Assembly (NCBI RefSeq): GCF_008370495.1 | Contig: NZ_VTUX01000007.1 | Coordinates: 310,001-374,000 of the forward strand | Length of the DNA: 64,000 nucleotides | From: Pseudohalioglobus sediminis | GTDB lineage: Bacteria > Pseudomonadota > Gammaproteobacteria > Pseudomonadales > Halieaceae | Direction: 5' to 3' | Shown: positions 5,061-26,700 of the stretch, one piece after another | How the letters are laid out: each line of letters begins with the position of its first letter | Numbering within the stretch: position 1 is the stretch's first letter | The notes under the pieces: model-generated | Told to the model about the DNA's origin: nothing | What the model saw: the letters and a program-made list of their open reading frames with translations, nothing else | Database searches by the model: none | Made by a program: the position numbers and the translations under genes

Positions 5061-5064
5061 ACGC

Positions 5065-7348: not shown

Positions 7349-7582
7349 ATGTGTTTGGCCATACCGGTACAGATAGACCAGATCCTCGATGCAGAAAACG
7401 CCATCGCCTCGGTGGGCGGCATCCTGCGTGAAATCAACACCGCACTGGTGGATGACCTGCAGGTGGGCGACTACGTCATCCTGCATGTGGGTTATGCCCT
7501 GTCCAAACTGGACGAGGACGAGGCGCAGGAAACCCTGCGCAGCATGGCCGAGGCGGGCCTGCTGGAGGACACGCAGCCATGA
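7349..7582 (+). CDS. hypC: Hydrogenase assembly chaperone HypC
   Basis: HypC (77 aa) carries the Fe(CN)2CO unit with HypD and docks on the large-subunit precursor. ATG 7349 is chosen because it gives the invariant MCLAIP N-terminus with Cys2. The beta-barrel pattern ([32 protein letters not shown]) follows the family. It has about 5 bases of spacing after hypF and an ATGA overlap with hypD. It is the second HypC-family protein in this locus besides HupF. Confidence 0.97.
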
Positions 7583-8757
7583 AATACGTCGATGAATTTC
7601 GCGATGGCGAACGTGCCCGTGGCCTGGCCCGGGCGCTGCATGCAGAAGCAGACCCCGGCCGCCACTACCGACTGATGGAATTCTGCGGAGGCCATACCCA
7701 TGCCGTGTTTCGCTACGGCGTGCCGGACCTGTTGCCGGACAATATTGAATTGATCCACGGGCCTGGCTGCCCGGTCTGCGTGCTGCCCATTGGCCGCCTG
7801 GATATGGCCATTCGGTTGGTGGAGAAGCACCCGGAAGTCATCCTCGCCAGTTACGGCGATATGCTGCGGGTACCCGGCAGCGGGCGTCGCACACTGCTGC
7901 AGGCCAGGGCCGACGGTGCTGACGTGCGCATGGTCTATTCCGTCAGCGATGCACTGGCGCTGGCGCGCGCCAACCCTGAAAGACAGATGGTGTTCTTCGG
8001 CATTGGCTTTGAAACCACCACCCCGCCCACTGCCCTGGGTATCCTCGAGGCGCGGCGCAGCGGGCTGGAAAACTTTTCCGTGTTCTGCAATCACGTGCTC
8101 ACGCCGGCTGCGATGGGGGCGATCCTCGATGTGCCGGAGACCAGCGCGGAGACCGTGGACATAGACGGCTTTATCGGGCCCTCCCACGTCAGTGTCATTA
8201 TCGGTTCGGGCGCCTATCGCTTCTGCGCAGACGCTCACCACAAACCGGTGGTGATCGCCGGGTTCGAGCCACTGGACGTACTGCAGTCACTACTGATGCT
8301 GGTACGCCAGTTGAACGAGGGCCGCGCCGAGGTGGAGAACCAGTACATTCGTGCGGTGACGCCGACAGGCAATGAACGCGCGCAGGCCATCGTGGATGAC
8401 GTCTTCACCCTGCGCGACAGCTTCGAATGGCGCGGTCTGGGCCAGATACCGCACTCCGCCCTGGGCCTGTCTCCGGACTATGCGGAATTTGATGCCGAGC
8501 GACGCTTCGACATGGCCTACGTGGCGGCGGAGGGCACCAAGGGCTGTGAGTGCCCTGCGGTACTGCGCGGTGCGAAAAAGCCTGTCGACTGCAAACTGTT
8601 CGCCACCGCCTGTACGCCCGAGAATCCGCTGGGTTCCTGCATGGTCTCCGACGAGGGGGCCTGCGCCGCCTACTTTACCTACGGCCGCTTCCGCCAGGAT
8701 GCGCTGGAACGCCAACAGGCCCAGCGCCAGGCGCACCGGGAGGCCCGCGAGCAATGA
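7579..8757 (+). CDS. hypD: Fe-S protein HypD, Fe(CN)2CO assembly
   Basis: HypD (392 aa) is the [4Fe-4S] scaffold on which the iron, cyanide and CO ligands are assembled. Conserved motifs are all present: [12 protein letters not shown] near residue 35, [11 protein letters not shown] near 60, [13 protein letters not shown] near 140, and the C-terminal cluster-binding run [10 protein letters not shown]...[28 protein letters not shown]. It has a normal length and overlaps both neighbours by ATGA. Confidence 0.97.
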
Positions 8758-9818
8758 CCGCAGGCGAATTCAAGGCCGGCCAGCGGCAGGCGCGACGCCT
8801 GGATCTCAGGTCCGGCAGGGTGGAAATGAATCACGGCGCCGGCGGCCGCGCCATGGCGGACCTCGTCGACCTGTTGTTCCGCCAGGCTTTTGACAACCCG
8901 CTGCTGAACCAGGCCAACGACCAGGCGCGCTTTTCAGCGCCACAGGGCGACATGGTGATGACCACCGATTCCTTCGTGATATCACCCCTGTTTTTCCCGG
9001 GCGGCAACATCGGCAGCCTCGCAGTGCACGGCACCGTCAATGACCTCGCCATGGGCGGCGCGGAACCACTCTACCTCAGTGCGGGGTTTATTCTCGAGGA
9101 GGGTCTGCCCCTTGCCGACCTGGCGCGCATCGTCGAGGCGATGGCCGCCGCGGCGCGAGAAGCCGGGGTGCAGATTGTGACCGGCGACACCAAGGTGGTC
9201 GAACGCGGCAAGGGTGACGGCGTATTTATCAATACCACCGGGGTCGGCCGTGTGCTGCCCGGGATCCGGGTGTCCGGAGAACTGGCGCGCCCGGGCGACA
9301 GGGTTCTGGTCTCAGGCACCATCGGCGACCATGGCGTAGCCGTGATGTCGCAGCGCCAGGGCCTGGCCTTCGCCACCGAACTGCTGTCGGATTCCGCCGC
9401 GCTGAACGGCCTGGTCGCCACCATGGCCGAGTGCGCCGGCCCGTCCCTGCGGGTGCTGCGCGATCCCACCCGCGGCGGCGTGGCGGCGACACTCAACGAA
9501 CTGGCCCACCAGTCAGCTGTTGGCGTGCAACTGCACGAAAGCGCCCTGCCGGTGCGTACCGAAGTGCGCGGTGCCTGTGAACTGCTTGGCCTGGACCCGC
9601 TGACCGTGGCCAATGAGGGAAAGCTACTGGCCATCTGTGAAGCCAGCGTCGCGGAACCACTGCTGGCTGCCATGCAGCAACACCCGCTGGGCGTCAACGC
9701 CGCGATTATCGGCGAGGTTATCGAAGACCCGCTGCAACTGGTGCGCATGACCACGGCCATTGGCGGCGAACGCGTGGTGGACTGGCTGCACGGTGAGCAA
9801 TTGCCCCGTATCTGTTGA
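8754..9818 (+). CDS. hypE: Carbamoyl dehydratase HypE
   Basis: HypE (354 aa) uses ATP to dehydrate its carbamoylated C-terminal cysteine to a thiocyanate, the cyanide donor. The PurM-like N-terminal domain shows NHGAGGRAM and TTDSFVISPLFFPGGNIGSLAVHGTVNDLAMGGA; the core shows GDTKVVERGKGDGVFINTTG and RDPTRGGVAATLNELA. The protein ends in the essential PRIC. ATG 8754 overlaps the hypD stop; the open frame further upstream lies inside hypD. It is the last gene of the hydrogenase cluster. Confidence 0.97.
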   Translation: MTAGEFKAGQRQARRLDLRSGRVEMNHGAGGRAMADLVDLLFRQAFDNPLLNQANDQARFSAPQGDMVMTTDSFVISPLFFPGGNIGSLAVHGTVNDLAMGGAEPLYLSAGFILEEGLPLADLARIVEAMAAAAREAGVQIVTGDTKVVERGKGDGVFINTTGVGRVLPGIRVSGELARPGDRVLVSGTIGDHGVAVMSQRQGLAFATELLSDSAALNGLVATMAECAGPSLRVLRDPTRGGVAATLNELAHQSAVGVQLHESALPVRTEVRGACELLGLDPLTVANEGKLLAICEASVAEPLLAAMQQHPLGVNAAIIGEVIEDPLQLVRMTTAIGGERVVDWLHGEQLPRIC

Positions 9819-9936: not shown

Positions 9937-10809
9937 TCAGCTATGCAGGGACTGCAGGAAACTGTCTATCGCCGCACGTGACACCGGCTCGTTGAGCGTC
10001 GGCGCGTGACCGCGATTAGGCACCTCCACGGCCTGCAGACCGGGGTGTTTTTCACGCATGGTCGCCACGCACTCCGGCGCCAGGATATCCGAGGTGGCCC
10101 CGCGCAGTACCAGCATGGGAATAGCGGCGCTGGCCTCGAACACCGGCCATAAATCGGCCGGTACCGCGCCGGACTCCTCATCCGCCATGGGCTGGGCGAT
10201 GGCCGGGTCATAAGCCAACACCGGGACGCCACCCTCGTCGCGATACAGGCCGCGGGTAAAATCTTCCCACTCCTGATCGCTGAAGTCGGGAAAGGCGATG
10301 GCATTGATCTCCCTGGCCTGGGCGATGGCCTCTTCCCAGTTTGTTACCGGCTTTGCTTTACCGACATAGGCCTTGATGCGATCGAGGCCCGCCTGGTCAA
10401 CTTCGGGGCCGATGTCGTTGATGATCATGCCGCGAATACGCGCCGGCTGCATCGCTGCCATCACGAACGACATCAGCCCGCCCATGGAAGTGCCGCAGAG
10501 TATGACCTGGTCTATATCCAGGCCTGCCAGCAGGGTGAACATGTCCTGTACATAAACCGCAGGCGTGTAATGACTGACGTCACTGTCGTAGGCCGACAAG
10601 CCGCGGCCGCGATTGTCCACCGAGATCACCCGGTAGCGCTGGCAAAGGTGTTCGGCGAGGCCGGCAAAGTCGGCAGAATTGCGCGTCAGACCGTGCATGC
10701 ACAGCACCGTGTCGGGGTCGGCGATAGTCGCATCGCGACAGCTGTAGTCGCGCGCATACAGGCGCAGGCCGTCGTCGCTCTGGTAGTAGTGATCGCGGTA
10801 ATCAGCCAT
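9937..10809 (-). CDS. Alpha/beta hydrolase
   Basis: A 290-aa alpha/beta-hydrolase-fold protein. Seen: oxyanion region LCMHGLTRNSADFAGLAEHL, nucleophile elbow CGTSMGG, a lid-like helical insert (residues 140-205) and the catalytic His in PNRGHAPTLNEP close to the end. The substrate cannot be told; epoxide-hydrolase-like, enol-lactonase-like and esterase roles are all possible. The start at 10809 gives MADYRDHYY and overlaps the upstream acyl-CoA ligase stop by 8 bases, so the two are co-transcribed and probably act in one catabolic route. No signal peptide, so cytoplasmic. Confidence 0.85.
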   Translation of the reverse strand: MADYRDHYYQSDDGLRLYARDYSCRDATIADPDTVLCMHGLTRNSADFAGLAEHLCQRYRVISVDNRGRGLSAYDSDVSHYTPAVYVQDMFTLLAGLDIDQVILCGTSMGGLMSFVMAAMQPARIRGMIINDIGPEVDQAGLDRIKAYVGKAKPVTNWEEAIAQAREINAIAFPDFSDQEWEDFTRGLYRDEGGVPVLAYDPAIAQPMADEESGAVPADLWPVFEASAAIPMLVLRGATSDILAPECVATMREKHPGLQAVEVPNRGHAPTLNEPVSRAAIDSFLQSLHS

Positions 10810-12358
10810 ATTTTCGGTCTCCGTACTCCACGCGTAACTCACGCTTGAGTATCTTGCCATTGGGGTTGCGTGGCAACTCCTCGCGCAGGATCACGTCCGC
10901 CAGGCGTTGCTGTTTACCAAGCCGGGCATTGGCCCACTCCAGAATTACGGCCGTGTCTGCGCCGCCCGCGACCGGCACCACCAGGGCCACTGGTGTTTCC
11001 CCCCACCGCTCGCTGGCCAGGCCGATGACGGCCACGTCGTCTATTTGCGGATGTTCGACCAGCACCGCCTCGATATCCTGCGGGTAAATATTCTGTCCGC
11101 CGGAGAGAATCATATCCTTCTTGCGATCAACGATGTACAGGTAACCCTCGTCATCGATGTAACCAATATCCCCGGAGCGCAGCCACTGCACGCCATCGGC
11201 ATCGACGAACCCAGCTTCCCGCGTAGCCTCCTCACGCCCCCAGTAGCAGGGCATGGAAATGCGCCCGCGGGATACGATTTCACCTGATTGATTGGGGCCG
11301 AGTACCGCGTCGTCGTCGCCAACTATACAGATATCGGTGCCCAGCAGCGGCGTGCCGACACTGGACCAGCGTCCGTCCGCGTCCTCGGGCTCCAGCGTGG
11401 TAATAATGCCCTCGGTAAGGCCATAGAGCTCGATAATGCCACAGGGGAAGGCCTTGAAGATGTCTCGCTTGAGGCTCTCGTGCAGCGGCGAGCCGCAACT
11501 CATCATCGCCTGCATACTGGTGACGTCACCACCCTGTGCCTGCAAAGCTTCGACAACGCGCTGGAACTGGATGGGCACCATGGCCGTGTGGGTGATGCGC
11601 TCCCGCGCTGTGGTGCGCAGGAACTCTCCCGCGTCGAACCGCGAGTGCACAACCAGCGTACCGCCAGCAAGCAGCGTGCACAGCATCGCCACCCAGGAGA
11701 TATTCGAGTACAGGCCGATAGTCAGCAGGGTTCTGGCAGACCCGTTGTAGCGCAGTGCGATGGACAGGTCATAGGCCCAGTCGCGGCGCCCCCGGTGTGT
11801 GTGCAGAATACCCTTGGGCAGTCCGGTCGTACCGGAGCTGTAGATGATATTGAGAGGGCTATCGACGCTCACGTTCGCCGCCGGCAAGGTCTCTGGCTGA
11901 CCCGCGCAGACGTCTTCCATGGCGACCCAATCGCCACCGGCTTCGCCGTCAGCTACCAGCAACTGCAGTGACTCCGGCAAGGCACCCGCCATGGCCTGCA
12001 CCCGCGCCACCTGGTCGCCCGTGGCCACCAGCGCCACCACGCCGGCGTCGACCAGCATGCCGGCCAGCGCTTCGTCACTGACCGACAGGTTAATGGGTAC
12101 CGAGCAGGCGCCGGCCGCCATGGTGCCGTAAATTGCCTGTACCATGGCCATGCCGTTGGCCATGACAATGGCGACCCGGTCACCAGGCCCTACCCCACGC
12201 TCGATCAGGCCGTGCGCAAAGCGATGATTTGCCGCGCAGAATTGTGCCCAGGTCCAACGCTGGTCGCCGCAGATAACGGCATCCTTGCTTCCGCGCCACT
12301 TGCCGTGCAGGGCAAAAATTTCAGGCAATAGCGGTGCGGCTGAGTCAAATTGGTACAC
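10802..12358 (-). CDS. AMP-forming acyl-CoA ligase (ANL superfamily)
   Basis: A 518-aa acyl- or aryl-CoA synthetase that would activate a carboxylic acid with ATP and CoA. Seen: the P-loop-like AMP motif IIYSSGTTGLPKGILHTHRG (about 169-190), GIIELYGLTEG, RSGDIGYIDDEGYLYIVDRKKDMILSGG, and the C-terminal catalytic lysine region RNPNGKILKREL. The family is certain, but the acid is not. It lies downstream of a TonB-dependent receptor and is followed by an overlapping hydrolase gene. A terminator-like hairpin lies just upstream, so expression may depend on read-through from the receptor gene or on its own promoter. Confidence 0.9.
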   Translation of the reverse strand: MYQFDSAAPLLPEIFALHGKWRGSKDAVICGDQRWTWAQFCAANHRFAHGLIERGVGPGDRVAIVMANGMAMVQAIYGTMAAGACSVPINLSVSDEALAGMLVDAGVVALVATGDQVARVQAMAGALPESLQLLVADGEAGGDWVAMEDVCAGQPETLPAANVSVDSPLNIIYSSGTTGLPKGILHTHRGRRDWAYDLSIALRYNGSARTLLTIGLYSNISWVAMLCTLLAGGTLVVHSRFDAGEFLRTTARERITHTAMVPIQFQRVVEALQAQGGDVTSMQAMMSCGSPLHESLKRDIFKAFPCGIIELYGLTEGIITTLEPEDADGRWSSVGTPLLGTDICIVGDDDAVLGPNQSGEIVSRGRISMPCYWGREEATREAGFVDADGVQWLRSGDIGYIDDEGYLYIVDRKKDMILSGGQNIYPQDIEAVLVEHPQIDDVAVIGLASERWGETPVALVVPVAGGADTAVILEWANARLGKQQRLADVILREELPRNPNGKILKRELRVEYGDRKYG

Positions 12359-12451: not shown

Positions 12452-14725
12452 TCAGAAGCGGTATTCAACCGTGGCGCTGACCGTCAAAGGCGGCGCGTAG
12501 AAGATCGTGGTGTTGTCTTCCAGTCCCAGCGTGGACGGGCAACCGCCCGAGCCAAAGCAGTAACCAGCCGTCTTGATTTCTTCGTCGGTCAGGTTCTTGC
12601 CGTACAGCCCCAGCAGCCAGGTCTCGCTTTCGCTGACCCAGATCACGCTGGCATTGATCACGTCGTAGGCGTCCTGGTCCAGCACGGGTGCCGGCACCTC
12701 GAACTGCGTGATGTCGCCCTTGTACGACCAGTTGGCGTTCAGGGTCAGCTCACCGCTGAAGGCCATCGTGTTGTAAGTGAAACCGATGTAGGCCATCTCC
12801 TCCGGCGTATTCTGGATTTCGCGCTGGTCGGACACGTCCACGTCATTCACGATCCATTCCTTGATATCGGTATCAAGGAAGCTGGCGGCAAGTTGCATGC
12901 TGAAGTTCTCGGTAAAGAGGAAGTTACCCTCAATCTCGATACCGGAAATTTCCGCTTCACCGGCGTTGGTCAACGTACCCACAAAATCGTCGTTGATGCC
13001 ATCGCCATTGGTGTCGATGCCTACCGACCCCGGCACCTGCATATCGGTGTATTCAGAGTAGAAAACCGCCACATTGGTAATAGCACGGCCGTCCCAGTAC
13101 ATGGACTTGAAGCCAATCTCGTAGGAGTCGAGTTGCTCCGGGTCTACGCCCTCTTCCACGGCCGGCGTCACCAGGTTGGCGCCGCGGGGGTCGAACATAC
13201 CGGCCTTGAAGCCCTGGCTATAGCCGGCATACACGGTGATGTCGTCAGTCCAGAGATAGCTGAGGTTGATGCGCGGCGAGAAGTCGTAGAAAGTGCGTTC
13301 GGCTTCGTAGTCACTGGTTACTGCAATCAGCACTGCGTCATCATTGCCAAAGAACGGCGAGCCGCCCGCACCCAGGTAGCTGCCGCGGAAGACGTCGGCG
13401 CTGCGCTTGTCTTCCGTATAGCGACCGCCTACCGCAAGCGACAGCTTGTCAGTGAAGTTCCAGGTCAGGTCGGCAAATACCGACCAGGACTCGGTCTCAA
13501 CGGAGCCACCGGTGTAAGCCGTGAGCTCAGCACCATAGGCAGAGCGCCCCAGTTGCCCGAGGACCACGTCGAAGTCGTTTGAGGCTTCAGCGTCAAGGTA
13601 ATAGAAGCCGGTCACCAGGTTCATTTTCTCGCCATTGAAGAGCAGCTGGAATTCCTGGCTGAACTGGTCATTGTCGTAGATCACCGGGGCATCAAAGTCA
13701 TCCACCTCGAGGCTGTCGAAGTCGATCACTGACTCGGTGTAGTCCTCGCGATCAGCCGTGATGGACCGGAATGTCCAGTAGTCACCGAGGTTCCAGTCCA
13801 GGGAGACCATCCAGCCTTCCGACTCCACCTCGTTGTTACCATTGATCCCACTGGTGGAAATATTATCCTTCGCGCCCGCGAGGGAATCGTAGATATCATT
13901 GAGCACAGGCGCGCCTGATACAGCGCCGGGGAACGGGCGGTAACCCGCTACCGGGCTGGAATCATCCTGGGTGTCGTCGTAGGAGAAACGCACCAGGATA
14001 TCTTCCGTGGGCAGCCACTCGGCGCTCAGGCGGTAGCCGAAGATGTCCTTGTCGTACTGGTCGTCGCCGGTGGTTTTATTCTCTCCGTAACCGTCCCGCT
14101 GGAAGGACGCCACGGCGCCACCCACTCGGAAGCTCTCACCCAGCGGTACCGACACGGTGCCAACCAGGTCGATCTGGTCATAGGAGCCGTAGGTACCCTT
14201 GAGCGAGCCGGTGAACTCGTCGCTGAGCCTCCGGGTCACGTACTTGATAGCGCCACCGACGGTGTTGCGGCCGTAGAGCGTACCCTGCGGCCCACGCAAC
14301 ACTTCGATCCGCTCCACATCGTAAATGTCCAGCACGGCACCCTGTGGGCGTGCCAGGAACACATCGTCGAGGTACAGGCCCACACCCTGCTCGTAGCCGG
14401 CCAGGGGATCCTGTTGGCCCACGCCGCGGATAAAGGCCGTCAGCGTTGTGTTGGTGGCGCGCGATGGCTCCAGGGTGACACTGGGCACGGATTGGGCCAG
14501 CTCTGTGATATCAGAGGCGCCTTTGAGGGTCAGGGCATCGCCTGACAGCGCGGTCACTGCGATGGGCACGTCCTGCAGGCTCTCAGAGCGCCGGCGGGCG
14601 GTCACAACCACCTCTTCCAGTTGCAGTTTCTGCTCATCACTCTGGGCGACAACGGCCGGCGCGCTGACGGCGGTGGCCAGGGTGAGGGCATAGAAAATCG
14701 GTGTTCGGGCGATACGTGGTGTCAT
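12452..14725 (-). CDS. TonB-dependent outer-membrane receptor
   Basis: A 757-aa TonB-dependent receptor. Signal peptide: residues 1-27 ([28 protein letters not shown]). The TonB box-like LQLEEVVVTARRR follows, then a plug domain (LQDVPIAVTALSGDAL, FIRGVGQQDP, VEVLRGPQGTLYGRNTVGGAIKYV-type motif) and a beta-barrel ending in aromatic VEYRF. The plug is of the type common in sphingomonad and marine receptors for hydrophobic or aromatic compounds and iron chelates; the substrate is not known. ATG 14725 has GAGG upstream; the upstream extension is rejected. The promoter contains two TetR-type palindromes (see 14801-14855). It is probably energised by the TonB system at 37233-42321. Confidence 0.93.
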   Translation of the reverse strand: MTPRIARTPIFYALTLATAVSAPAVVAQSDEQKLQLEEVVVTARRRSESLQDVPIAVTALSGDALTLKGASDITELAQSVPSVTLEPSRATNTTLTAFIRGVGQQDPLAGYEQGVGLYLDDVFLARPQGAVLDIYDVERIEVLRGPQGTLYGRNTVGGAIKYVTRRLSDEFTGSLKGTYGSYDQIDLVGTVSVPLGESFRVGGAVASFQRDGYGENKTTGDDQYDKDIFGYRLSAEWLPTEDILVRFSYDDTQDDSSPVAGYRPFPGAVSGAPVLNDIYDSLAGAKDNISTSGINGNNEVESEGWMVSLDWNLGDYWTFRSITADREDYTESVIDFDSLEVDDFDAPVIYDNDQFSQEFQLLFNGEKMNLVTGFYYLDAEASNDFDVVLGQLGRSAYGAELTAYTGGSVETESWSVFADLTWNFTDKLSLAVGGRYTEDKRSADVFRGSYLGAGGSPFFGNDDAVLIAVTSDYEAERTFYDFSPRINLSYLWTDDITVYAGYSQGFKAGMFDPRGANLVTPAVEEGVDPEQLDSYEIGFKSMYWDGRAITNVAVFYSEYTDMQVPGSVGIDTNGDGINDDFVGTLTNAGEAEISGIEIEGNFLFTENFSMQLAASFLDTDIKEWIVNDVDVSDQREIQNTPEEMAYIGFTYNTMAFSGELTLNANWSYKGDITQFEVPAPVLDQDAYDVINASVIWVSESETWLLGLYGKNLTDEEIKTAGYCFGSGGCPSTLGLEDNTTIFYAPPLTVSATVEYRF

Positions 14726-14800: not shown

Positions 14801-14816
14801 TTCAACATGTGTTGAA
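14801..14816. promoter_or_regulatory. TetR-type operator site 1 (downstream of the promoter)
   Basis: The palindrome TTCAACATGTGTTGAA (7-bp arms, 2-bp centre) lies just after the predicted transcription start of the receptor gene, 32 bp from site 2, about three helical turns away. It matches sites 2 and 3. Confidence 0.75.
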
Positions 14817-14826
14817 TTTGGTGAAA

Positions 14827-14855
14827 AATCTATTCAACATTTGTTGAACTGTCAA
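14827..14855 (-). promoter_or_regulatory. Receptor promoter with operator site 2 in its spacer
   Basis: On the minus strand, a perfect -35 TTGACA (14850-14855) and a -10 TAGATT (14827-14832) are separated by exactly 17 bp. The spacer is almost wholly the palindrome TTCAACATTTGTTGAA (14833-14848, 7-bp arms). A repressor bound here would block RNA polymerase. Confidence 0.8.
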
Positions 14856-14878
14856 CCCCGGTGGTAAATATTTATCAA

Positions 14879-16318
14879 TCAGCTTTGCTGCGCCGGCATG
14901 GCATTGCGCGTCACCGCGAGGCCGAAAAGGCCAAATGCAAGGGACGCGAAAATAGCATAAGTAGCTGAAACAGCTGGATTTTCGACACCGCCAAAGAGGT
15001 TGAACCAGAGGTGCAGAAGCAGTCCTATGGCGGCCGAGCCCATAACTACCCAGAGCGGGATGTGGCGTCTCACCAACACCCCGAACAGCACCGGCACCAG
15101 CGATGCGGCCGCCAGCCCATAAACACCCTTTTGCGCAAACAGGCCAATAAGGGACGGCGGGTTCCAGGCGAGTACTACACCCACCACCCCCACGCCAACC
15201 AGCACCCAGCGCGACAGTAGCAACCCATCCACGCGGTCCCCGGCAAGGGGCTGCACGATGTCGTTCACCACCATTGCCGACAGTGACACCAGGATGCCGT
15301 CAAGGGTGCTCATGCCCGCAGCCAACAGGGTGATAAAAATGAATACCAGTACGTACTCGCCCCACACCGAACTGCCAAACTCCTGTAGCAGGTACTCTCG
15401 CACGACCGTGTCCTGGGCGTCGACTTCCAGCCCCGAGAGCCGCGCATAGAAGCCGATCATCAACATCAACATGAACAGGGAACCCACGACCACGGTGGTA
15501 CCAATGAACTTGTTGATGTCGCGCTCACTGCGCAGGTACAGCACCTTGGTCAGGATGTGCGGCTGCAGCATCAGCGCGAAAGTGATTACAAAGCCACTCA
15601 GGAATACCGAGAAGAAATCAGAATACAGGTTGCTGTCGGCGTTGTAGGCGGAGGCATACTCTTCGCCGATGCTGCGCAAGGCACCAAAAAAATCACCGTT
15701 GAAGTATTTCCAGCCCTGCACAAACAATACCGCCGTTACCAGCATCATCATGATGCCCTGCAGCGAGTTGGTGTAGGCGTGGGCGTAAGTACCGCCCATC
15801 AACACGTAGGAAAATACGAACACCAGCACGACCACCAGTGCCGTCTTCTGCTCGATGGGGAACAGCCCGGTCACCAACAGGCTGCAACCCACGAGTATCA
15901 GCACTACGAAGGTGATGGACAGCAGATTGATAAAGGCAAAGAACAGGCTGAAGCCGCGATGGTTATAGCGGTAGAAAATCCATTGCGGGATAGTAACGGC
16001 CGCGCCACTTTCACCCAGGCGCAAAAAGCCGCGCGTCAGCACCAGGAACGCAGTAAGAATACCGAGCGAACCGGCCACGCCATAATGCAGATAGGCGGAC
16101 AGACCGTGTGTGTAAACAAAACCCGGGTTAATAACGAAGGTCGCCGTTGAGGAGATGGACGCTGCCAGGGTGATACCCACGATGTAGGGGCTCATATCCT
16201 TGTTGCCGATGGCAAAGCCCTCCACCGAACGTGTGCGCCGCATACCCAGCCAGGACAACCAGTAAACCAGCAGGGCATAGGCCCCCACTACCAGGTACTT
16301 GAAAATCTCTGCCGTCAT
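14879..16318 (-). CDS. Sodium:solute symporter family protein
   Basis: A 479-aa inner-membrane protein with about 13 hydrophobic segments and sodium:solute symporter signatures (SWLGMRRTRSVEGFAIGNKDMSPYIVGITLAASISSTATF near the N-terminus, then YVLMGGTYAHAYTNSLQG). It probably imports a small organic acid or similar solute with Na+. The start MTAEIFKYL at 16318 places the first helix properly; the longer frame to 16399 would run through its promoter. It is transcribed divergently from the TetR gene and shares an operator type with the TonB receptor, which suggests that the receptor, this permease and the acyl-CoA ligase handle one substrate across both membranes. Confidence 0.9.
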   Translation of the reverse strand: MTAEIFKYLVVGAYALLVYWLSWLGMRRTRSVEGFAIGNKDMSPYIVGITLAASISSTATFVINPGFVYTHGLSAYLHYGVAGSLGILTAFLVLTRGFLRLGESGAAVTIPQWIFYRYNHRGFSLFFAFINLLSITFVVLILVGCSLLVTGLFPIEQKTALVVVLVFVFSYVLMGGTYAHAYTNSLQGIMMMLVTAVLFVQGWKYFNGDFFGALRSIGEEYASAYNADSNLYSDFFSVFLSGFVITFALMLQPHILTKVLYLRSERDINKFIGTTVVVGSLFMLMLMIGFYARLSGLEVDAQDTVVREYLLQEFGSSVWGEYVLVFIFITLLAAGMSTLDGILVSLSAMVVNDIVQPLAGDRVDGLLLSRWVLVGVGVVGVVLAWNPPSLIGLFAQKGVYGLAAASLVPVLFGVLVRRHIPLWVVMGSAAIGLLLHLWFNLFGGVENPAVSATYAIFASLAFGLFGLAVTRNAMPAQQS

Positions 16319-16354
16319 GCAATCACCCGATTGTTCTACTCTTATTGGTCGTGC

Positions 16355-16383
16355 AGCATATTCAACAAGCGTTGAATTATCAA
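16355..16383 (-). promoter_or_regulatory. Symporter promoter with operator site 3 in its spacer
   Basis: On the minus strand, -35 TTGATA (16378-16383) and -10 TATGCT (16355-16360) are 17 bp apart. The spacer contains TTCAACAAGCGTTGAA (16361-16376, 6-bp arms). The layout is the same as in the receptor promoter. The site is also about 47 bp upstream of the tetR start on the other strand, so it could serve autoregulation. Confidence 0.8.
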
Positions 16384-16422
16384 CTATGCTAATCTTCATC
16401 GCGTCGAATAACAGGGGTACTT

Positions 16423-17070
16423 ATGAGCAGGAAAACGCCGAGCGCCAAGAGCGAACGCATTCTCGATGTCGCCGAGGAACTGTTCGCACTGCGCGGGTAC
16501 GATGGTGTCACCCTGCGCCAGATCGCTAACGGCGCCGGCGTGGATGTCGCCCTGGCCAGTTACCACTTCGGGAAAAAAATCGACTTGTTCAATGCGGTTT
16601 TCCAGCGGCGCGCCGTGGAGCTGAACGAATCTCGCCTGAGTGCACTGCGCGCCTGCCAGGACAGCAGCGGCAAGGCCGGCCCTTCTGTGGAACAGATTAT
16701 CGAGGCCTTTTTGCGCCCCCTGGAGATTGCCCAGGAAACAGGCGACAAGGGCTGGACCAATTACCTCGCGCTGATTGCCTACATCAACAACTCGCCCTAC
16801 TGGGGCAAACGCATGATGTCGAAACTGTTCGACAAACTGGTGCTGGAATTCATCGACGCCCTGCGCAAGGCCCTACCGGACGCCCGCGATGAAGACCTGT
16901 TCTGGTGTTATCACAATTTATCCGGCGCACTGACCCTGACTCTGGCCCAGACCGGGCGCATCGACACGCTCTCCGGCGGCAGCTGCCGCTCCAGTGACTT
17001 CCGGGCCGCCTATGATCACATGATTCCGTTTACGGCGGCGGGGTTTCGCCAGGTCTGTGGCGGCCAATAA
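16423..17070 (+). CDS. TetR/AcrR-family transcriptional regulator
   Basis: A 215-aa one-component regulator. Residues 10-58 are a TetR DNA-binding domain: SERILDVAEELFALRGYDGVTLRQIANGAGVDVALASYHFGKKIDLFNAVF, with the recognition helix around VALASYHFG. The rest is an all-helical ligand-binding and dimerisation domain. It is divergent from the symporter gene, with a palindromic operator between them. The inference is that it represses the symporter, the TonB receptor and possibly itself, and is released by the transported compound or its CoA ester. A candidate -10 (TATGCT, 16385-16390) lies upstream of its own start. Confidence 0.93.
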   Translation: MSRKTPSAKSERILDVAEELFALRGYDGVTLRQIANGAGVDVALASYHFGKKIDLFNAVFQRRAVELNESRLSALRACQDSSGKAGPSVEQIIEAFLRPLEIAQETGDKGWTNYLALIAYINNSPYWGKRMMSKLFDKLVLEFIDALRKALPDARDEDLFWCYHNLSGALTLTLAQTGRIDTLSGGSCRSSDFRAAYDHMIPFTAAGFRQVCGGQ

Positions 17071-17084
17071 GCAAGGCCCAGCCT

Positions 17085-17450
17085 CTAGAGGCTGAGGGAG
17101 GCCTGGTAATAGTCGCCGTCGCCGCAGGATTCACTGGAAGCGAAATCCTGTAAGCGTTCATCCACCAGCACCTTGTCAGCCGCATCGATAGAGAACATCA
17201 AACCGTCCACGTAACCCAGCGCCTTGGACAGGATGTTATCTTTTTCAGATTCCTCAAACCCCTCCAGCACACTGTGAGTGCGAGCGCCGTACTCCTTTTC
17301 GCTGAGATACCCGAGCGACTGTTGCGCCAGAACACAGGCCAGGGCCCGTGATGCCGTGAACTCTTCCGGCGCCAGCGACAGGCCGGCGGCCGTCTGCGTG
17401 GTCAGCGCGGTAAACATTGCGGTGATCAGTAACTGTTTGCGCATAGTCAT
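17085..17450 (-). CDS. Small secreted hypothetical protein
   Basis: A 121-aa protein of no recognised family. Residues 1-23 form a Sec signal peptide (MTMRKQLLITAMFTALTTQTAAG). The mature part is helical and acidic (EESEKDNILSKALGYVDGLMFSIDAADK) and contains two cysteines (ACVLAQQ and SESCGDGD) that could form a disulfide. It may start at 17450 or, two codons later, at 17444. It is convergent with the tetR gene, 14 bases apart. No functional call is made. Confidence 0.7.
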   Translation of the reverse strand: MTMRKQLLITAMFTALTTQTAAGLSLAPEEFTASRALACVLAQQSLGYLSEKEYGARTHSVLEGFEESEKDNILSKALGYVDGLMFSIDAADKVLVDERLQDFASSESCGDGDYYQASLSL

Positions 17451-18556: not shown

Positions 18557-18645
18557 CACGCTCTGTAGCGTTGGCAGGGGCCCGGAAGGACCCCTGGACA
18601 ACGTCACACAACGCCCCCTCACCACCGCATGCATGGAGATCTGCC

Positions 18646-20517
18646 GTGATCCACGACGAAGAAAGCAGCAACAAGTCAGACAATCGTAAGTTTTCCGAGA
18701 TTCTGGAAGCCGCCTCATCACGCCGTTCATTTATGACCGGCACGATCAGCCTGGCGGCCGCCACGTTCATCGCACCCAGTCTCGCCACGGGCGCGACCCT
18801 GAACAATACGGTCGGCTCCCGCGGCAGCGGCGAGAACCGCCTGCGTAAGGGCGGGATCAATTTTGAGCCCGTACCGGTGAGCGCGGGAACCGGCCCAATG
18901 CCCACGATCTCCAGCGACTACGAATACCAGGTGTTGATCCCCTGGGGTACACCGCTGGAATCGGGCATCGCGGAATACACCGGCGACCCCACCACCCGCC
19001 CGAGCGCTGCAGACCAGGAGCGCATGATCGGCGTGGGCCACGACGGCATGCACTTCTTCCCCATCGAGGGCCGTAATAGTGAAGGCATACTGGCCATAAA
19101 CCACGAATTCGGCAGCAATAGCCATGTATTGGGCAAGGAAGCCCCGGAAAACGACGAGGATATCCGGCTGTCGCAGGCGGCCCACGGCGTGGCCATGGTG
19201 CATATCAAACGCGGCAGGCAGGGCTGGAAGGTGGTGACAGACAGCCCCTACAACCGCCGTATCACGCCCAATACACCGGTGGTCTTTGCCGGTCCTGCGC
19301 AGGGGTCCTCCGCGATCGCGCCTGAAGCCGGGGCCAGGGGCACCGTCAACAACTGTTCCAGCGGCCACACGCCCTGGGGGACCTACCTGACCTGTGAAGA
19401 AAACTTCAACGGCTATTTTGGCGACAACCAGGGCACATGGACGCCCACAGAAGAACAGGAACGTTACGGTTTCTCTTCCACGGGCTTTGGTTACGGTTGG
19501 GAAACCCACTCTTCCGACAGGCGTTTCGACCTCGGCAGTAATGCGCATCCTAACGAAGACAACCGCTTCGGCTGGGTAGTGGAAATTGACCCCATGGCGC
19601 CGGACCAGCCGCCGGTCAAGCGCACTGCACTGGGGCGCTTCAAGCACGAAGGCGTCGCTATCGTAGAGGGCAAGAACGGCCACATTGTCGCCTACATGGG
19701 CGACGACCAGCGCTTCGACTACATCTACAAGTACGTCTCCAGCGGCAACTGGGAAGAGATGCTCGCCGAAGGCATCAGCCCGCTGGACAGGGGGCGCCTG
19801 CACGTGGCGAAATTCAATGATGACGGCACCGGCGAGTGGCTCCGGCTGACAATCAACAACCCGATACTGGCTGAACGCTTCAGCAGCCAGGCCGAGGTAC
19901 TGACCTACGCCCGGGTCGCCGCCGACCTGCTCGGCGCCACCCCAATGGACCGTCCGGAGTGGACTACCGTGGCACCGAACGGAGATGTGTATTGCACGCT
20001 GACCAACAACAGCCGTCGCGAAGAACCCAACGCAGCCAATCCCCTGGCACCAAATGCGGACGGTCACATTATCCGCTGGCGCGACTCTGCGAACCATGTG
20101 GGCAACCGCTTCGTCTGGGACATCTTCGCCTTCGCGCAGGACACGCACGCCGAAGGAGATGAACGCAGCTTCAGCGATCCCGACGGCCTATGGGTCGATC
20201 CGGGCGGTCGCATGTTCATCCAGACCGACGGTGACCAGGTAAAAGGCCTCAACAACCAGTTGCTGGTATGCAGCGTGTATGACAATGGCGGCGCCCGGAG
20301 CATGGATATAAGACGTCTTTTCACCGGCGTAACGGGCGATGAGATCACCGGTCTTACCACAACGCCGAATCGCCGCACCCTGTTCATCAACACCCAGCAT
20401 CCGGGCAACGGCGATCCACTGCTCAGTAGTTTCCCCGCCGAGCCGGACGGGGTCACCATCCCCCGGGACAGCACATTCGTTATCACTCGCAAGGACGGCT
20501 GGGTTGTCGGTAGCTGA
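18646..20517 (+). CDS. phoX: PhoX-family alkaline phosphatase, Tat-exported
   Basis: A 623-aa PhoX-type enzyme, an Fe/Ca-dependent monoesterase that releases phosphate from organic phosphates in the periplasm or outside. The N-terminus has a twin-arginine signal (SRRSFMTG, RR at 26-27, then a hydrophobic stretch ending SLATGA). Family motifs are present: INHEFGSNSHVLG, WGTYLTCEENFNGYFG (metal-binding Cys and Glu), LGRFKHEGVAI, YMGDDQRFDYIYKY and PNGDVYCTLTNN. The GTG start at 18646 is fixed by GGAG seven bases upstream; the longer frame from 18571 has no such site. A small tatA follows directly. The promoter has Pho-box-like repeats. Confidence 0.93.
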   Translation: MIHDEESSNKSDNRKFSEILEAASSRRSFMTGTISLAAATFIAPSLATGATLNNTVGSRGSGENRLRKGGINFEPVPVSAGTGPMPTISSDYEYQVLIPWGTPLESGIAEYTGDPTTRPSAADQERMIGVGHDGMHFFPIEGRNSEGILAINHEFGSNSHVLGKEAPENDEDIRLSQAAHGVAMVHIKRGRQGWKVVTDSPYNRRITPNTPVVFAGPAQGSSAIAPEAGARGTVNNCSSGHTPWGTYLTCEENFNGYFGDNQGTWTPTEEQERYGFSSTGFGYGWETHSSDRRFDLGSNAHPNEDNRFGWVVEIDPMAPDQPPVKRTALGRFKHEGVAIVEGKNGHIVAYMGDDQRFDYIYKYVSSGNWEEMLAEGISPLDRGRLHVAKFNDDGTGEWLRLTINNPILAERFSSQAEVLTYARVAADLLGATPMDRPEWTTVAPNGDVYCTLTNNSRREEPNAANPLAPNADGHIIRWRDSANHVGNRFVWDIFAFAQDTHAEGDERSFSDPDGLWVDPGGRMFIQTDGDQVKGLNNQLLVCSVYDNGGARSMDIRRLFTGVTGDEITGLTTTPNRRTLFINTQHPGNGDPLLSSFPAEPDGVTIPRDSTFVITRKDGWVVGS

Positions 20518-21116: not shown

Positions 21117-23756
21117 TCAGAAGCTCGCCTTGAGCCCGATGCTGTAAGTCACACCCGGGTCCCAGCGTTCATACAACTGGCCACCCTGGGTCCACTCTAC
21201 TTCTTCGTCAAAGATGTTCGCCGCTTTGGCTTCAACTTCGAGTTCGGAGTTGCGCCACTCAAACGCATACTTGAGCAGCAGGTCTACCCGGTGACGATCT
21301 TCCTCGATGATATCCGGGGAGTTGTTGTCCCCCACCAGGATGATGCGATCACCGGTAAAGTTATAGGCGATACTACCGGTGATGCCGCTGTCGTATTCCT
21401 GGTAGGAAAACAGCAGGTTACCCAGCAGGTCTGACTGGCCGGTCATACGGCGCTCGTTGGCAAACAGGGGAGCGATCTGGCGACCACCAGTGAGTGGCAC
21501 ATCCGCAGCGGTCTCACCACTGCCCAGCAGTGTGACCTCGGAGTCGATCCAGGATATGTTCGCCGACAGCCGGAAACCATCCCAGGCCGGGGCCATATCG
21601 AACCAGGTACCAAAGTAGAGATCCTTGCGCACATCGAACTCTACACCCTCGAGCGTGGCCTCCTCGGCGTTGAACCAGGTGAAGATATCACCCTGCGCCT
21701 GTATCTTGGCCAGCTCAATGGGATCAGTGAAATCCTTCCTGAACAAACCGACAGACATCTCGTCCGCTGCACCGAAATACCATTCCCAGCGCAGGTCCAG
21801 GTTCTCCACATCCGCAGGCTCAAGGAACACGTTACCGCGATAGAGGTTCTGGTCCTCAGGATTACGCAGGGTAGAGCCGGTGATTTCCAGCAGGCTGGGG
21901 CGGTTCACCGTCTCCGAGTAGGCCACGCGCAGCTGCATGTTTTCCACGAACTCCCAGGTGATGGAACCACCTGGCAGGGTGTCGGAATAGTCGCGCTTGA
22001 CCAGGTTATCGGTACCCGGGTCGGTATTGCCACCCCAGGCGTCGGCGGTGATATCGGTATCTTCGTCGCGCACGCCGAGCTGAACTCGCACTGTGGGCAA
22101 CACTTGCGCGTCTATGGAACCGTAAAAGGCCGTGACCTCTTCAGAGGATTCGGCAAAGGGGAAGATACCCGAGGCATTGGCCTGACCCGCAGAGAAATCG
22201 CGCACCGTCAGGTACTGATCGGCCCAGTTCTGGTCACGGAACAATTGCCGCGGCGTCATCCAGGCGATGTACTCGGGCGCAGCAGGCTGCAGGCCGAAGC
22301 GGAACAGGCGGTCCTCGCTCTCGCGCGTACGCTCGTAGTTCGAGTAACCAGCCTTAACCACGCTGTCGAGGAAGCTGAAGGGCACCTCGATATCAAAGCC
22401 GTAGTCCTCGATGTCATCCTGCAACTCACTGTAGTTTCGGTCCGGAGCCTGATACACATCGCGCAGGTCACCCGCCGCCTGCCGGCTCGGGTCCACGATC
22501 GCCATGATGCCGTCGTTGTTCTCAGCGTAGGTGTAGGTACGTGTATCCGGCGCCTCGCGCGAACCCGACCCGTCAACCAGCCGCCATTCCAGTAACATGT
22601 CGTTCAGACTGCTGAAGTAGTGCTCGCCGGTGAGCTGGAAGGACTCGATCTCGTTCTCCGTCCACTGCAGCCTATAACTCTCGACAAAGGTACCGTCGTT
22701 GACATCGTCCTCCGAGGAGAAACCTCGGTCCTGCTGCACCTCGTCTTCTGATTGACGCAGGTTAAGCGCCGTAAACGAAATGGCGTTGTCCTGGTTCAGC
22801 TCCAGGCCGACGTTGAGGAAACCGGACAGGTTGACAGTCTGCCTGGTGATCCAGCGGGTGTAGTCGACAGTCTGGTTGCTGCCGCCATCGACGCCGGTGA
22901 ATTCGTAGCGCGCCAGATCCTTGATGGTGTTGGTCCAAAGGTTGCTGTACTTGACGTTCGCCAGCACCCCCAGTGCCATGCCATTGTCAAAGTCCAGGCG
23001 TTTACCGAATTCCGCCTCGCCACTGTAGAGGGGCTTGAGATCCTTCTCGTAAATATCCCACTTGTTGTAGAAGCTGGCGCCCAGGTTGGCTTTTTCGGGG
23101 TAATCGACAGCCTCGAATTCCTCGCTGGTCAGCCCCTGTATATTCCGGGGAATCTTGCGAGTACCGTCATCCCAGCCCCAGTTATCGTTCTCTCCGCCGC
23201 GATAGAAGAGGCCGTCCCCGCCCGTCGATTCTGAATTCCCGCCCGCTGTAAGCTTGGCGGAAAAGTAATCCTCATCCGGAATGGTCTTGGTGCGGATATC
23301 CACCACACCACCGGAAAAGTCACCCGGGTACTGCGCAGAATAGGTCTTCTGCACCAGCAGGCTCTTGACGATGTTGTTGGGTACGATATCCAGGGGCACG
23401 GTTTTCTGGAAGGGCACCGGCGAGGAGATACGCGAGCGATTAAGCAGCGTGGATGAATAACGCTCGCCCAGTCCGCGAACATAAACGTACTTTCCCCCTA
23501 CCAGGCTGAGGCCCGACACCCTCGACAGGGTCGCACCGACATTGGTTTCGGGAACGATGTTCATGTCTTCTTCACCCACCACATTGGAGATTTCAGACGT
23601 ATCGCGCTTTTCGTCAGGAATAAACTCGCCGGTTACGAAAACCTCTTCCAGCTGAGGCGCAGGCGCATTCACCTGCACATCAGTATCCTGGGCGGAAGCG
23701 CCGGCGGAGATGCCCGCCAACGCTGCCACAGCGAGTGATAGTTGCTTACGTTTCAT
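21117..23756 (-). CDS. TonB-dependent outer-membrane receptor
   Basis: An 879-aa receptor. Signal peptide MKRKQLSLAVAALAGISAGASAQ, TonB-box-like LEEVFVTGEF, then a plug with LSRVSGLSLVGGKYVYVRGLGERYSSTLLNRSRISSPVPF, VPLDIVPNNIVKSLLVQKTYSAQYPGDFSGGVVDIRTK, and a barrel ending in ITYSIGLKASF-like sequence (VTYSIGLKASF). This plug type (VRGLGxRYSSTLLN) is shared by a distinct receptor group in marine gammaproteobacteria and alphaproteobacteria; the substrate is unknown. It lies 15 bases downstream of a giant beta-helix protein gene and in one operon with a lipoprotein gene. ATG 23756 is preferred over an upstream GTG. Confidence 0.93.
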   Translation of the reverse strand: MKRKQLSLAVAALAGISAGASAQDTDVQVNAPAPQLEEVFVTGEFIPDEKRDTSEISNVVGEEDMNIVPETNVGATLSRVSGLSLVGGKYVYVRGLGERYSSTLLNRSRISSPVPFQKTVPLDIVPNNIVKSLLVQKTYSAQYPGDFSGGVVDIRTKTIPDEDYFSAKLTAGGNSESTGGDGLFYRGGENDNWGWDDGTRKIPRNIQGLTSEEFEAVDYPEKANLGASFYNKWDIYEKDLKPLYSGEAEFGKRLDFDNGMALGVLANVKYSNLWTNTIKDLARYEFTGVDGGSNQTVDYTRWITRQTVNLSGFLNVGLELNQDNAISFTALNLRQSEDEVQQDRGFSSEDDVNDGTFVESYRLQWTENEIESFQLTGEHYFSSLNDMLLEWRLVDGSGSREAPDTRTYTYAENNDGIMAIVDPSRQAAGDLRDVYQAPDRNYSELQDDIEDYGFDIEVPFSFLDSVVKAGYSNYERTRESEDRLFRFGLQPAAPEYIAWMTPRQLFRDQNWADQYLTVRDFSAGQANASGIFPFAESSEEVTAFYGSIDAQVLPTVRVQLGVRDEDTDITADAWGGNTDPGTDNLVKRDYSDTLPGGSITWEFVENMQLRVAYSETVNRPSLLEITGSTLRNPEDQNLYRGNVFLEPADVENLDLRWEWYFGAADEMSVGLFRKDFTDPIELAKIQAQGDIFTWFNAEEATLEGVEFDVRKDLYFGTWFDMAPAWDGFRLSANISWIDSEVTLLGSGETAADVPLTGGRQIAPLFANERRMTGQSDLLGNLLFSYQEYDSGITGSIAYNFTGDRIILVGDNNSPDIIEEDRHRVDLLLKYAFEWRNSELEVEAKAANIFDEEVEWTQGGQLYERWDPGVTYSIGLKASF

Positions 23757-23771
23757 TGCGTGCACTCTCGC

Positions 23772-26700
23772 TTACAGGCCAAATACCCAGCTACCTTTCC
23801 AGCTGTCGATGTCGGAGCCGACAATGTCAGACTGCTCGAAGAACCCGTCTGAGGGCAGGGTCGCCGCAGGTGGCATGCTGCCGTCCTGGGTGACGTTCAC
23901 CGCACCGTCGAGGTAGGTCTGCAGATCGGGATTGTCTCCGTCCACCACCTCCGCGCAGGCGAAGGATGTACTCTCGATGTTGATATCCATACCAATCAGG
24001 CCGACAGAAGTATCGCCATCCACATCAAGACAGGTCGCGGAACCGGAGACCATCACGTTGTAGAGGTCGGCGCCGGTGCCGCGGCGCAGGCGTATGGCAC
24101 GCTCGCCACTGTTACCGATGATCGACATGTTGGCGATGGTCGGGTTGGAGCGCGGTTCGGCGTTCTCGTCACCCTCACGGTTGTCGGCCTCGATGCCGTT
24201 GTCTGCGGAGTCGGCGCCTTGTTCGATGTGCACGAACTGCAGGCTACCAGTCCAGCCGTCGGTCCAGTCGAGGGAGTCGTCGGCGTTGCCGGTCAGGGCC
24301 AAGTACCTGGCGCTCACCGTACCGCCGAAGAACTCGATGCCGTCATCCAGGTTGTTGTGCACCTGGATAAAGTTCACCTCGGTGCCGGAACCCACGCCCT
24401 GGAAGGCGATTCCGTTGAGCTGGTTCTCAGGATCAACATTGGAACCCGCGTACTTGACCACGACATAGTTGAGCTTGCCGCTGGAGTCCGCCGCATCCGC
24501 GCCACCGAACAGGCCGGAGTTGGCTTCACCTTCCTTGGTACACTCCACAGTGCCCCCGGTGGCGCCTTCCGGGCAGTCGTTGATCGGCGCGTTGCCGTTG
24601 ATCACCAGGCCGCCCCAGAGACCGCGCGCGTTGTCCAGATTGGTGGCGCCGTCCACGTCAGCCAGCGCGGTAAATGTTACCGGCATGGAGGCCGTGCCGT
24701 TGGCGACAATCTGCGAGCCGCGGGAGATCACCAGGAAGTCCTCTGCGTCGTTGCCGACGATGGTCGTACCAGCGTCAACCGTCAGCACTGCGGAATCGGT
24801 GTTGTCGCCGCCTACTGTGGTCTTGCCGCTGAGGATGTAGAAATTGCCTGACGTCAGTCGCAGATCGGCGATGATGTTCTCGGGCAGCAGACAGGTCGGC
24901 GTGCCGGCAATCGGCGCACCGTCTGTGGTGCCGTCGGGACAGCCGTCGACTACCGGGAAGTCCGGCACCCCTGTATCCAGGGTGCCTACAGTCCAGCCGG
25001 CGGTCCAGTTGCTGCCTTCCTCAACAGCGCCGATAAAGCCGCTGTTCTCAAGGTCGCCGATACCGGCCACGTCGACCGGGTTCACCGCGCTGCCGTCCTG
25101 TGACACGTTGTCCTGACCGTCGAGGTAGGACTGCAGATCCGGGTTATCGCCATCGACGACCTCCGGACAGTCGAAGGCCACGCCATCAACTGCCAGCTCA
25201 TTGCCCAATAAGCCCAGTGACTCACCGGACACGTCGATACAAGTCGCGTTGCCGGTGATGTAGGAGTTGTAGAGCCCTACACCGGTGCCGCGGCGGAAGC
25301 GCACACCGCACTCACCCGGGTTACCCACGATCGTCATGTTGGAAATATCGGGCATTGACCGCGGCTGGGCGTTCTCGTCACCCTCGCGGTTGTCGGCCTC
25401 GATACCGTTGTCGGCAGAGTCATCGGCCTGGTTGATCAACAGGTACTGTATGGAGCCCTGCCAACCGTCAGTCCAGTCCAGGGAATCGTCGGCATTGCCG
25501 GTGAGCACCACGTGGGTGGCGCTGACGTTGCCGCCGAAGAACTCGATACCGTCATCCAGGTTGTTGTGCACCTGCACGAAGTCCACCTCGGTGCCGGAGC
25601 CCACGCCCTGGAAGGCGATACCGTTGAGCTGGTTTTCCGGGTCCACGTTGGAACCGGCGTACTTCACCACCATGTACTTCAGGCTGCCGCTGGAGTCGGC
25701 AGGATCGTCACCACCGAACAGGCCGGAGTTGGCCTCGCCTTCCTTGGTGCACGCCAAAGTGCCGCCTACCGCGCCTTCCGGGCAGTCGTTGATCGGCGCG
25801 TTACCGTTTATGACAACGCCACCCCAGAGGCCGCGCGTAGTCTCGATATCCGCATTGCCCAACAGGTCGTCGATACCAGTGAAGGTCACCGGTGCATTGG
25901 CGGTACCATCAACAACCAGTTCGGAACCGCGGGAAATGACCAGGAAGTCGCTGCTGGTGCCGCCGTAAACCGTCACGCCGGCCTGCACGTTCAGCGTCGC
26001 GGAGTCGGTGTTGTCGCCACCTATGACCACCTTACCGTTCAACTGGTAAAGCTTGCCCGGAACCAGCGTAAGGTCCTGGGTGATAGTACCTTCAAGCTCG
26101 CAGACGCTTTGGCCAGCGACCTCTTCCGAGGCTTCAGTAGTGCCCTCAGGGCAGCCCACGCCGGGATTGCCGCCATCCGGGTTACTGACAGAGCCGGGGA
26201 CCGTCCATCCCTGCGTCCAGTTATCCCCGCCAATCGCGCCAATAAAGCTGGCGGATTCGAAAAAATCGCCCATGGGGGTAACCGGATTGACGCTGCCGCC
26301 GGTGGTGGAGACCTCGTCGGCGGTGGCCAGGTAATCCGCCACCACACCGCCTTCGTCATCGACGACGGCTTCTTCGCAACCGAAGCTGGTGCCTGCAATA
26401 GTCAGGTCTGCACCCAGCAGGTTCAGCGACTCGCCGCCGATGCGCAGACAGCTGCCTGAGTCAACAACGAAGCTGTTGGTGAGGTGGATGCCGGTACCGC
26501 GACGGAAGCGCAGGCCATTCTCCCCGGCCAGGCCGAAGCCGGACATGTTGCTGATAGACGGCAGGGAGCGCGGCTGGGCATTTTCATCGCCCTCGCGGTT
26601 ATCGGCCTCGATCAGATTGTCGCCTGAACCCGACTGCTCGATGTAGAGATACTGGATGTTACCCTGCCAACCATCAGTCCAGTCCAGCGAATCGTCGGCA

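Follow-up and report, generated by a model that had tools for sequence, protein, structure and literature searches.

Which compound does a small transport gene cluster of the gammaproteobacterium Pseudohalioglobus sediminis bring into the cell, and is that import governed by the TetR-family gene beside it? The cluster lies in a stretch of 64,000 nucleotides (the window; contig NZ_VTUX01000007.1, positions 310,001 to 374,000 of the forward strand) and comprises genes for a TetR regulator, a sodium:solute symporter (SSS), a TonB-dependent receptor, an AMP-forming acyl-CoA ligase and an alpha/beta hydrolase, with three copies of an inverted repeat in its promoter regions. A preliminary description of this DNA had proposed that one local repressor controls outer- and inner-membrane import of a compound that the ligase and hydrolase then metabolise, and comparison with related genomes supports that proposal as the best reading of the sequences. 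Judged in this way, the cluster is a conserved TetR regulon, because its sites co-occur with TetR, move with the genes, precede further targets and vanish where the cluster is deleted. The compound had been left open; from the genes found behind the same operators in relatives we infer that the regulon probably serves the import and breakdown of 3-hydroxybutyrate or its oligomers. Taken as a whole, the reading of a TetR repressor related to PsrA and NicR that acts on these operators, with a regulon for 3-hydroxybutyrate or oligomer uptake and breakdown, is one that we consider likely.

All three repeats conform to the motif TTCAAC-N4-GTTGAA (16 bp, with a 12-base core). Operator 1 (TTCAACATTTGTTGAA, 14833–14848) lies within the spacer of the receptor promoter, between a −35 hexamer TTGACA (14850–14855) and a −10 hexamer TAGATT (14827–14832), both on the minus strand. 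Operator 3 (TTCAACAAGCGTTGAA, 16361–16376) is placed likewise in the symporter promoter, between TTGATA (−35, 16378–16383) and TATGCT (−10, 16355–16360), again on the minus strand and 17 bp apart; each of the two 17-bp spacers consists of the 16-bp dyad plus one base. These hexamers and filled spacers are as first described. Operator 2 (TTCAACATGTGTTGAA, 14801–14816) is 32 bp from operator 1, a distance that also holds, and would cover about +4 to +19 of the receptor transcript, just past its predicted start point. The wording TTCAACA-N2-TGTTGAA used earlier is exact for TTCAACATGTGTTGAA and TTCAACATTTGTTGAA but one base off in TTCAACAAGCGTTGAA; the shorter motif fits all three. Operator 3 also lies over the −35 of a possible tetR promoter on the plus strand, formed by a weak TCAACA inside the dyad (16362–16367) and a TATGCT 8 nt after it (16385–16390).

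The tetR gene (16423–17070, plus strand, 215 amino acids, the presumed repressor) is divergent from the symporter gene, as previously noted. For the latter (14879–16318, minus strand, 479 amino acids) the start was set by homology: the ATG at 16318, where orthologues begin to align, is the most likely, 42 bp past the dyad. A longer open reading frame from 16399, which would run through the operator, was set aside on the same alignments. The protein belongs to the SSS family (PF00474, 101.4 bits; cut-off 22.8) and reached no NCBIfam model cut-off, so that its substrate is not given by family. On the same strand follow the receptor gene (12452–14725, 757 amino acids), whose product has the Plug and beta-barrel domains of TonB-dependent receptors (PF07715, 67.6 bits; PF00593, 162.2 bits), the ligase gene (10802–12358, 518 amino acids) and the hydrolase gene (9937–10860, 307 amino acids as listed). 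As listed, the hydrolase gene begins within the last part of the ligase gene; alignments in many relatives begin only at about residue 17, and the true start may be later. Because both genes follow the receptor on the same strand at short distance, they probably share its transcript.

Short inverted repeats are generally common, and the dyads might be chance or structural repeats, such as transcript hairpins, with no regulatory role. In the P. sediminis genome (4,431,436 bases, 23 contigs), copies are confined to this cluster: three exact 12-base cores lie here within 1.6 kb and none elsewhere, and the reversed control pattern does not occur. Allowing up to two mismatches to the 14-base pattern gave 12 places (these three and nine others), against four for the reversed control. 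A looser scan of the window (up to three mismatches) found four matches against a mean of 1.13 in shuffled sequence, a number reached by 2 of 100 shuffles, and is weak alone.

The core was then followed through a family sample of 140 Halieaceae genomes from 28 genera (G numbers; fetched loci are given L numbers), 53 of which contain it. A TetR orthologue of 66 percent identity or more was found in 42 genomes, every one of which carries the exact core, at 119 sites in total and at exactly three sites in 27 of them. The other 98, which include one genome with a TetR remnant (G025) and six with weak TetR matches (29–33 percent), have it in 11 cases (12 sites). This is about the control rate, the reversed pattern giving 17 sites in the 140 genomes. 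Symporter matches (E 1e-120) were found in 40 family genomes, all among the 42. Three relatives keep the operators beside a symporter match that is incomplete or interrupted (L031/L085 of G042, L091/L017 of G013, and G138:C126): it is partial in two of them and contains a stop codon in the third. Beyond the family, where more distant loci led to 16 additional genomes, 15 of these have the core (41 sites; reversed control 8).

Two genomes of the same genus as the window are informative by what they lack. In G025, a tetR remnant (residues 115–213) abuts a hydrolase gene without its first 41 codons, and neither the symporter (E 1e-120) nor the receptor (E 1e-150) nor a core site was found: cluster and sites have been lost as a unit. 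In G028, searches for TetR (E 1e-20), symporter, receptor and core site all came back empty.

Among core sites outside the cluster, those before two depolymerase genes (L195, L198) and a lone site upstream of a FabG-like short-chain dehydrogenase/reductase (L199) look real. Those of L166, L168, L169, L171–L174 and L178 offered nothing in favour of regulation, and the site of L197 falls within an open frame. The 11 genomes that own a core copy in the absence of an intact TetR speak for chance, and three of these (L036–L038, of one genus and devoid of TetR) have the exact dyad shortly past the beginning of an open reading frame that seems to be the same in each, where it is probably a conserved codon run and not an operator. 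In TetR-bearing G138, a fourth exact core site (L175, 150–165) lies close to a contig end and has no clear target. The examination of outside sites covered those named here and left aside the fourth site of G054 (C38), L182, L189, G075 and G094.

Placement relative to promoters was tabulated for 57 loci (L070–L119, L129, the window, four family loci and L196), many of which share the 140 genomes, so that the counts are not independent. A site was accepted with at most one mismatch to the 12-base core, and hexamer counts took the best site per gene. Receptor-like genes below 34 percent identity were dropped, L119 excepted; this affects only L112, where the gene in question (29 percent) lacks a nearby site. 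Every symporter gene (48 of 48) and every receptor gene (51 of 51) is preceded by at least one site. Five of the receptors (L011–L014 and L196) had been fetched through the operator itself, which makes them circular; the fair receptor count is 46 of 46. The sites have thus been retained in orthologous loci that keep the genes. Together with the genome-wide count above, this covers two of the three refuting conditions named in the preliminary description, and neither of them applied. Two or more sites stand before 48 of the 51 receptors (43 of 46 excluding the operator-fetched loci), and the distance between neighbouring sites (n = 50) is 32 bp in 21 cases and 29–34 bp in 44. TTGAC[A/T] occurs at the window's offset in 48 of the 51 receptor promoters, and 41 pass a strict count of both hexamers. 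Such fixed placement and the genome-wide counts with their reversed-pattern control together rule out a chance origin of the dyads, and we give an absence of regulatory role practically no weight.

The symporter promoters can be read as two forms. The window's belongs to the first, in which the dyad occupies the spacer (TTGnnn, dyad, TAnnnT); this form accounts for 25 of the 48, of which a strict count passes 15. A second form, seen in 20 promoters (those of Haliea among them), would draw its −35, TTGAAA or TTGAAT, from the dyad's right half, followed 16–17 bp on by a −10 resembling CAGAAT, CACAAT or TATAGT; the remaining three are unclear. If this second form has been read correctly, the operator would have stayed in place as the promoter slid along it. 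Gene order varies around the sites as well. Other genes intervene between symporter and receptor in L088 and L089, where each of the two genes keeps its sites; the receptor is inverted in L104, where both it and the ligase have sites; and in L106 and L107, with no symporter in the fetched locus, a receptor with sites faces tetR directly. Receptor identity falls to 36–44 percent in many loci with operators retained, for example in L083 and L097, where identity to the window's receptor is only about 43 percent and both sites are present. Receptors away from tetR with two sites (L011–L013, L196) were found via the sites, and so represent further targets but no rule. The loci form a natural series in which operators remain as the surrounding promoters and genes change.

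Of the 53 sites that lie no more than 260 bp from tetR, 16, the window's included, have a TAnnnT on the tetR strand exactly 8 nt past the dyad, compared with a background of 0.6 percent per position. This is consistent with tetR sharing operator 3, an addition to what had been described before, and autoregulation through that operator may occur in the window and its near kin. We limit it to these because tetR elsewhere must use another start.

The regulator itself is a member of the TetR family (TetR_N, 51.3 bits, cut-off 24; TetR_C_30, 125.4 bits, cut-off 26.3), with an all-helix AlphaFold model of mean pLDDT 92.8. Its recognition of these dyads is a prediction, and L101 and L105 have no site within 260 bp before tetR; a different regulator might therefore bind the dyad, the neighbouring TetR using another operator. 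Against this stand the tight co-occurrence of TetR and core (42/42 versus 11/98) and their joint absence from G025, with its TetR remnant only, and G028. The recognition-helix stretch VDVALA[S/N]YHFG is moreover conserved without change in 24 of the 29 relatives aligned from loci with the dyad, and altered in L121–L123, loci that lack it. Finally, PsrA, the nearest characterised relative, binds dyads with the same AAC-N4-GTT core, according to PMC13104628 and PMC10304680. We regard a separate dyad-binding regulator as very unlikely, and take the local TetR as the predicted binding protein of these sites in what follows.

What, then, is imported? Four lines of evidence point the same way, and the first comes from the genes that stand behind the same operators in relatives. 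Poly-3-hydroxybutyrate (PHB) is a natural polyester, and 3-hydroxybutyrate and its short ester oligomers are its decay products. An operator pair precedes a PhaZ7 PHB depolymerase gene in L195 (G140, the genome of L101; NF050060, 500.2 bits, cut-off 450; PDB 2vtv, E 9e-114), with a promoter of the spacing TTGACT-dyad-TAGTCT and the second site upstream, not downstream. Further pairs precede type-1 PHB depolymerase genes in L198 (G047), with TTGACA and a poor −10, and in L105, adjacent to tetR, where the spacer is 18 bp and the −10 is TATGAT. All three of these promoters have a −35 beginning TTGAC. The two type-1 enzymes score 174.4 and 171.5 bits, respectively, with NF050058 (cut-off 150). In L198, a gene for an FMO-like flavin monooxygenase (4841–6700, plus strand) is divergent from the depolymerase gene, and the operator pair could serve either or both. 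These PHB-specific genes belong to the relatives; the window genome has none behind an operator, its three core sites all belonging to the cluster.

A second indication comes from the enzymes within the cluster. Receptor and hydrolase occur together in 39 loci; the ligase accompanies them without the dehydrogenase in 28, a 3-hydroxybutyrate dehydrogenase without the ligase in six, and in no case are both present. In L096, the dehydrogenase sits between receptor and hydrolase, the ligase's usual place; this enzyme passes PRK12429 and falls short of TIGR01963. TIGR01963 is passed by the dehydrogenases of L108, L112, L113, L114, L115 and L117, which follow tetR on its strand. Those of L114 and L115 score identically and the others are close to them (66–71 percent), and because of this kinship there are fewer independent events than the counts suggest. 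L119, the locus with a TetR of 51 percent identity, has a receptor, a 3-hydroxybutyrate-oligomer hydrolase (PF10605, 473.6 bits), a 3-hydroxybutyrate dehydrogenase and a GntP permease in line beside tetR, with a single site that has one core mismatch. FabG-like reductases are found in the clusters of L096, L101 and L105, together with an acetoacetyl-CoA reductase in L096, and a further FabG-like gene stands behind a lone site in G014.

Several observations weigh against 3-hydroxybutyrate or against the wider reading. At a threshold of E 1e-25, no type-1 depolymerase was matched in the window genome; 38 of the 140 family genomes have a match, five of which pass the model cut-off. Most carriers would then scavenge soluble products, such as oligomers made by others, or the compound is broader than 3-hydroxybutyrate. 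The operator is present at one of 30 depolymerase-like loci fetched (one of nine among those from TetR-bearing genomes). Four depolymerase genes exceed the cut-off in family genomes that carry the TetR (G047 has two, G113 and G054 have one each), and one of the four has the operator. Run against the family sample, PF10605 and the PhaZ7 model gave no match, with controls equally silent, so that absence is not established. None of the dehydrogenases has its own operator, most following tetR on the same strand, and in five of the receptor-plus-hydrolase loci both ligase and dehydrogenase are missing. TetR (66 percent) is kept in the Microbulbifer genome of L110, which has degenerate sites only and is the one genome without an exact core among the 16 from beyond the family. 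TetR proteins, moreover, can also act as activators. Ligase and hydrolase of the window exceed no cut-off among the NCBIfam models shown and match broad families only.

The regulon might therefore be real and serve a different compound, some short acid, an ester or a lactone, with medium-chain or branched hydroxy acids and dicarboxylic or aromatic acids as examples, the PHB genes being late additions in a few relatives. The top NCBIfam match of the hydrolase is 3-oxoadipate enol-lactonase, at 58.4 bits far below the cut-off of 255.85, and most family genomes lack a visible type-1 PHB depolymerase. Retention of operators beside receptors of 36–44 percent identity further suggests that receptor specificity may vary. 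Against such a compound speak the finding of three depolymerase genes, from two families and three genomes, behind operator pairs, and the replacement of the ligase by 3-hydroxybutyrate dehydrogenase, once at the same gene position. We consider another compound unlikely, though its chance is not negligible. The highest-scoring solved chain for the hydrolase was 3bwx, neither hydrolase nor ligase found a relative with a telling substrate among solved structures, and plasmid homologues of the hydrolase gave no hint of one. One of these adjoins a TetR gene on a Novosphingobium plasmid, amid MFS and arsenic transporters.

For 3-hydroxybutyrate or its oligomers, the following mechanism can be proposed. 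A TetR dimer of the TetR_C_30 type would bind TTCAAC-N4-GTTGAA; at operator 1 it would occupy the spacer between the two hexamers of the receptor promoter and block polymerase, with a second dimer at operator 2, just past the start point, adding occupancy or a block. A dimer at operator 3 would cover the symporter promoter and probably tetR's own −35. Repression by exclusion would be the simplest reading, an effector freeing the repressor and giving RNA polymerase access. The receptor would then take oligomers across the outer membrane, and the symporter oligomers or monomer across the inner one; the hydrolase would cleave the oligomer esters, and the ligase convert 3-hydroxybutyrate (or acetoacetate) to its CoA ester.

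A further step, for which we see about even chances, is that this is a polyester utilisation locus: TonB import of 3-hydroxybutyrate oligomers under a PsrA-like TetR, spread in Halieaceae and neighbouring marine gammaproteobacteria, with most carriers holding only the import and intracellular part and living on oligomers that others release from PHB. Were this true, it would add a substrate class for TonB receptors not found among the literature matches listed, none of which concerned this regulon or TonB uptake of 3-hydroxybutyrate oligomers in its title or abstract opening. The locus would also be a marker for marine scavengers of PHB and similar biodegradable plastics, and would offer a compact 3-hydroxybutyrate sensor, made of a TetR protein and a 16-bp operator that fits a promoter spacer.

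Several other genes surround the cluster in the window. Convergent with the hydrolase gene are two genes (7579–9818, plus strand) that we take to be hydrogenase maturation genes resembling hypD and hypE. After tetR lies a gene for a secreted-looking protein of 121 amino acids with no Pfam match (17085–17450, minus strand), relatives of which occur in L070, L071, L073 and L082 and beside the G025 tetR remnant. A PhoX-type alkaline phosphatase (18571–20517, plus strand; PF05787, 446.4 bits) has no operator nearby. An 882-residue TonB receptor (21117–23765) adjoins a secreted-looking protein of 1171 amino acids (23772–27287, minus strand), which has three similar stretches of about 350 residues each and no Pfam match above cut-off; relatives of both stand beside the cluster in L071, L073 and L082.

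How does the regulon compare with known systems? By structure, the best match to this TetR is NicR2, the TetR repressor of nicotine catabolism (TM-score 0.78, 24 percent identity), whose target genes, judged by the name of the structure entry alone, are different. Genes of 3-hydroxybutyrate utilisation (dehydrogenase, GntP permease, oligomer hydrolase) are found in or beside the cluster in L119, L096, L108, L112–L115 and L117. To our knowledge, the known proteobacterial systems for this compound have no TonB receptor and use other regulators; here, in contrast, uptake would run via a TonB receptor and an SSS symporter under TetR control.

PsrA (PA3006), the Pseudomonas fatty-acid regulator, is related in sequence (phmmer E 3.8e-15 to structure 2fbq, over residues 7–212) and in fold (TM-score 0.71, 24 percent identity over the match). 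With the PsrA equivalog model NF053516, however, this TetR scores 92.7 bits, below the cut-off of 300, and its target genes and presumed ligand differ. Sites for PsrA are given as GAAAC-N4-GTTTC and TTCAAAC-N4-GTTTGAA in PMC13104628, which also places a site in the psrA promoter between −18 and +20 and describes self-repression in P. putida. Beyond the common core, the operators diverge: the form (G/C)AAAC-N2-4-GTTT(G/C), as stated in PMC13104628 and PMC10304680, does not describe those found here, which differ in the outer bases. The unit of TonB receptor, inner-membrane transporter, hydrolase and local repressor is the same as in the TonB loci for glycans that resemble polysaccharide utilisation loci, judged by PMC10100682 and by what is commonly described for such loci. 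In contrast to these, the cluster proteins scanned by family models included no glycan-specific gene, and the enzymes point to an ester-linked hydroxy acid. The type of switch is well known, and this regulon is a further case of that kind.

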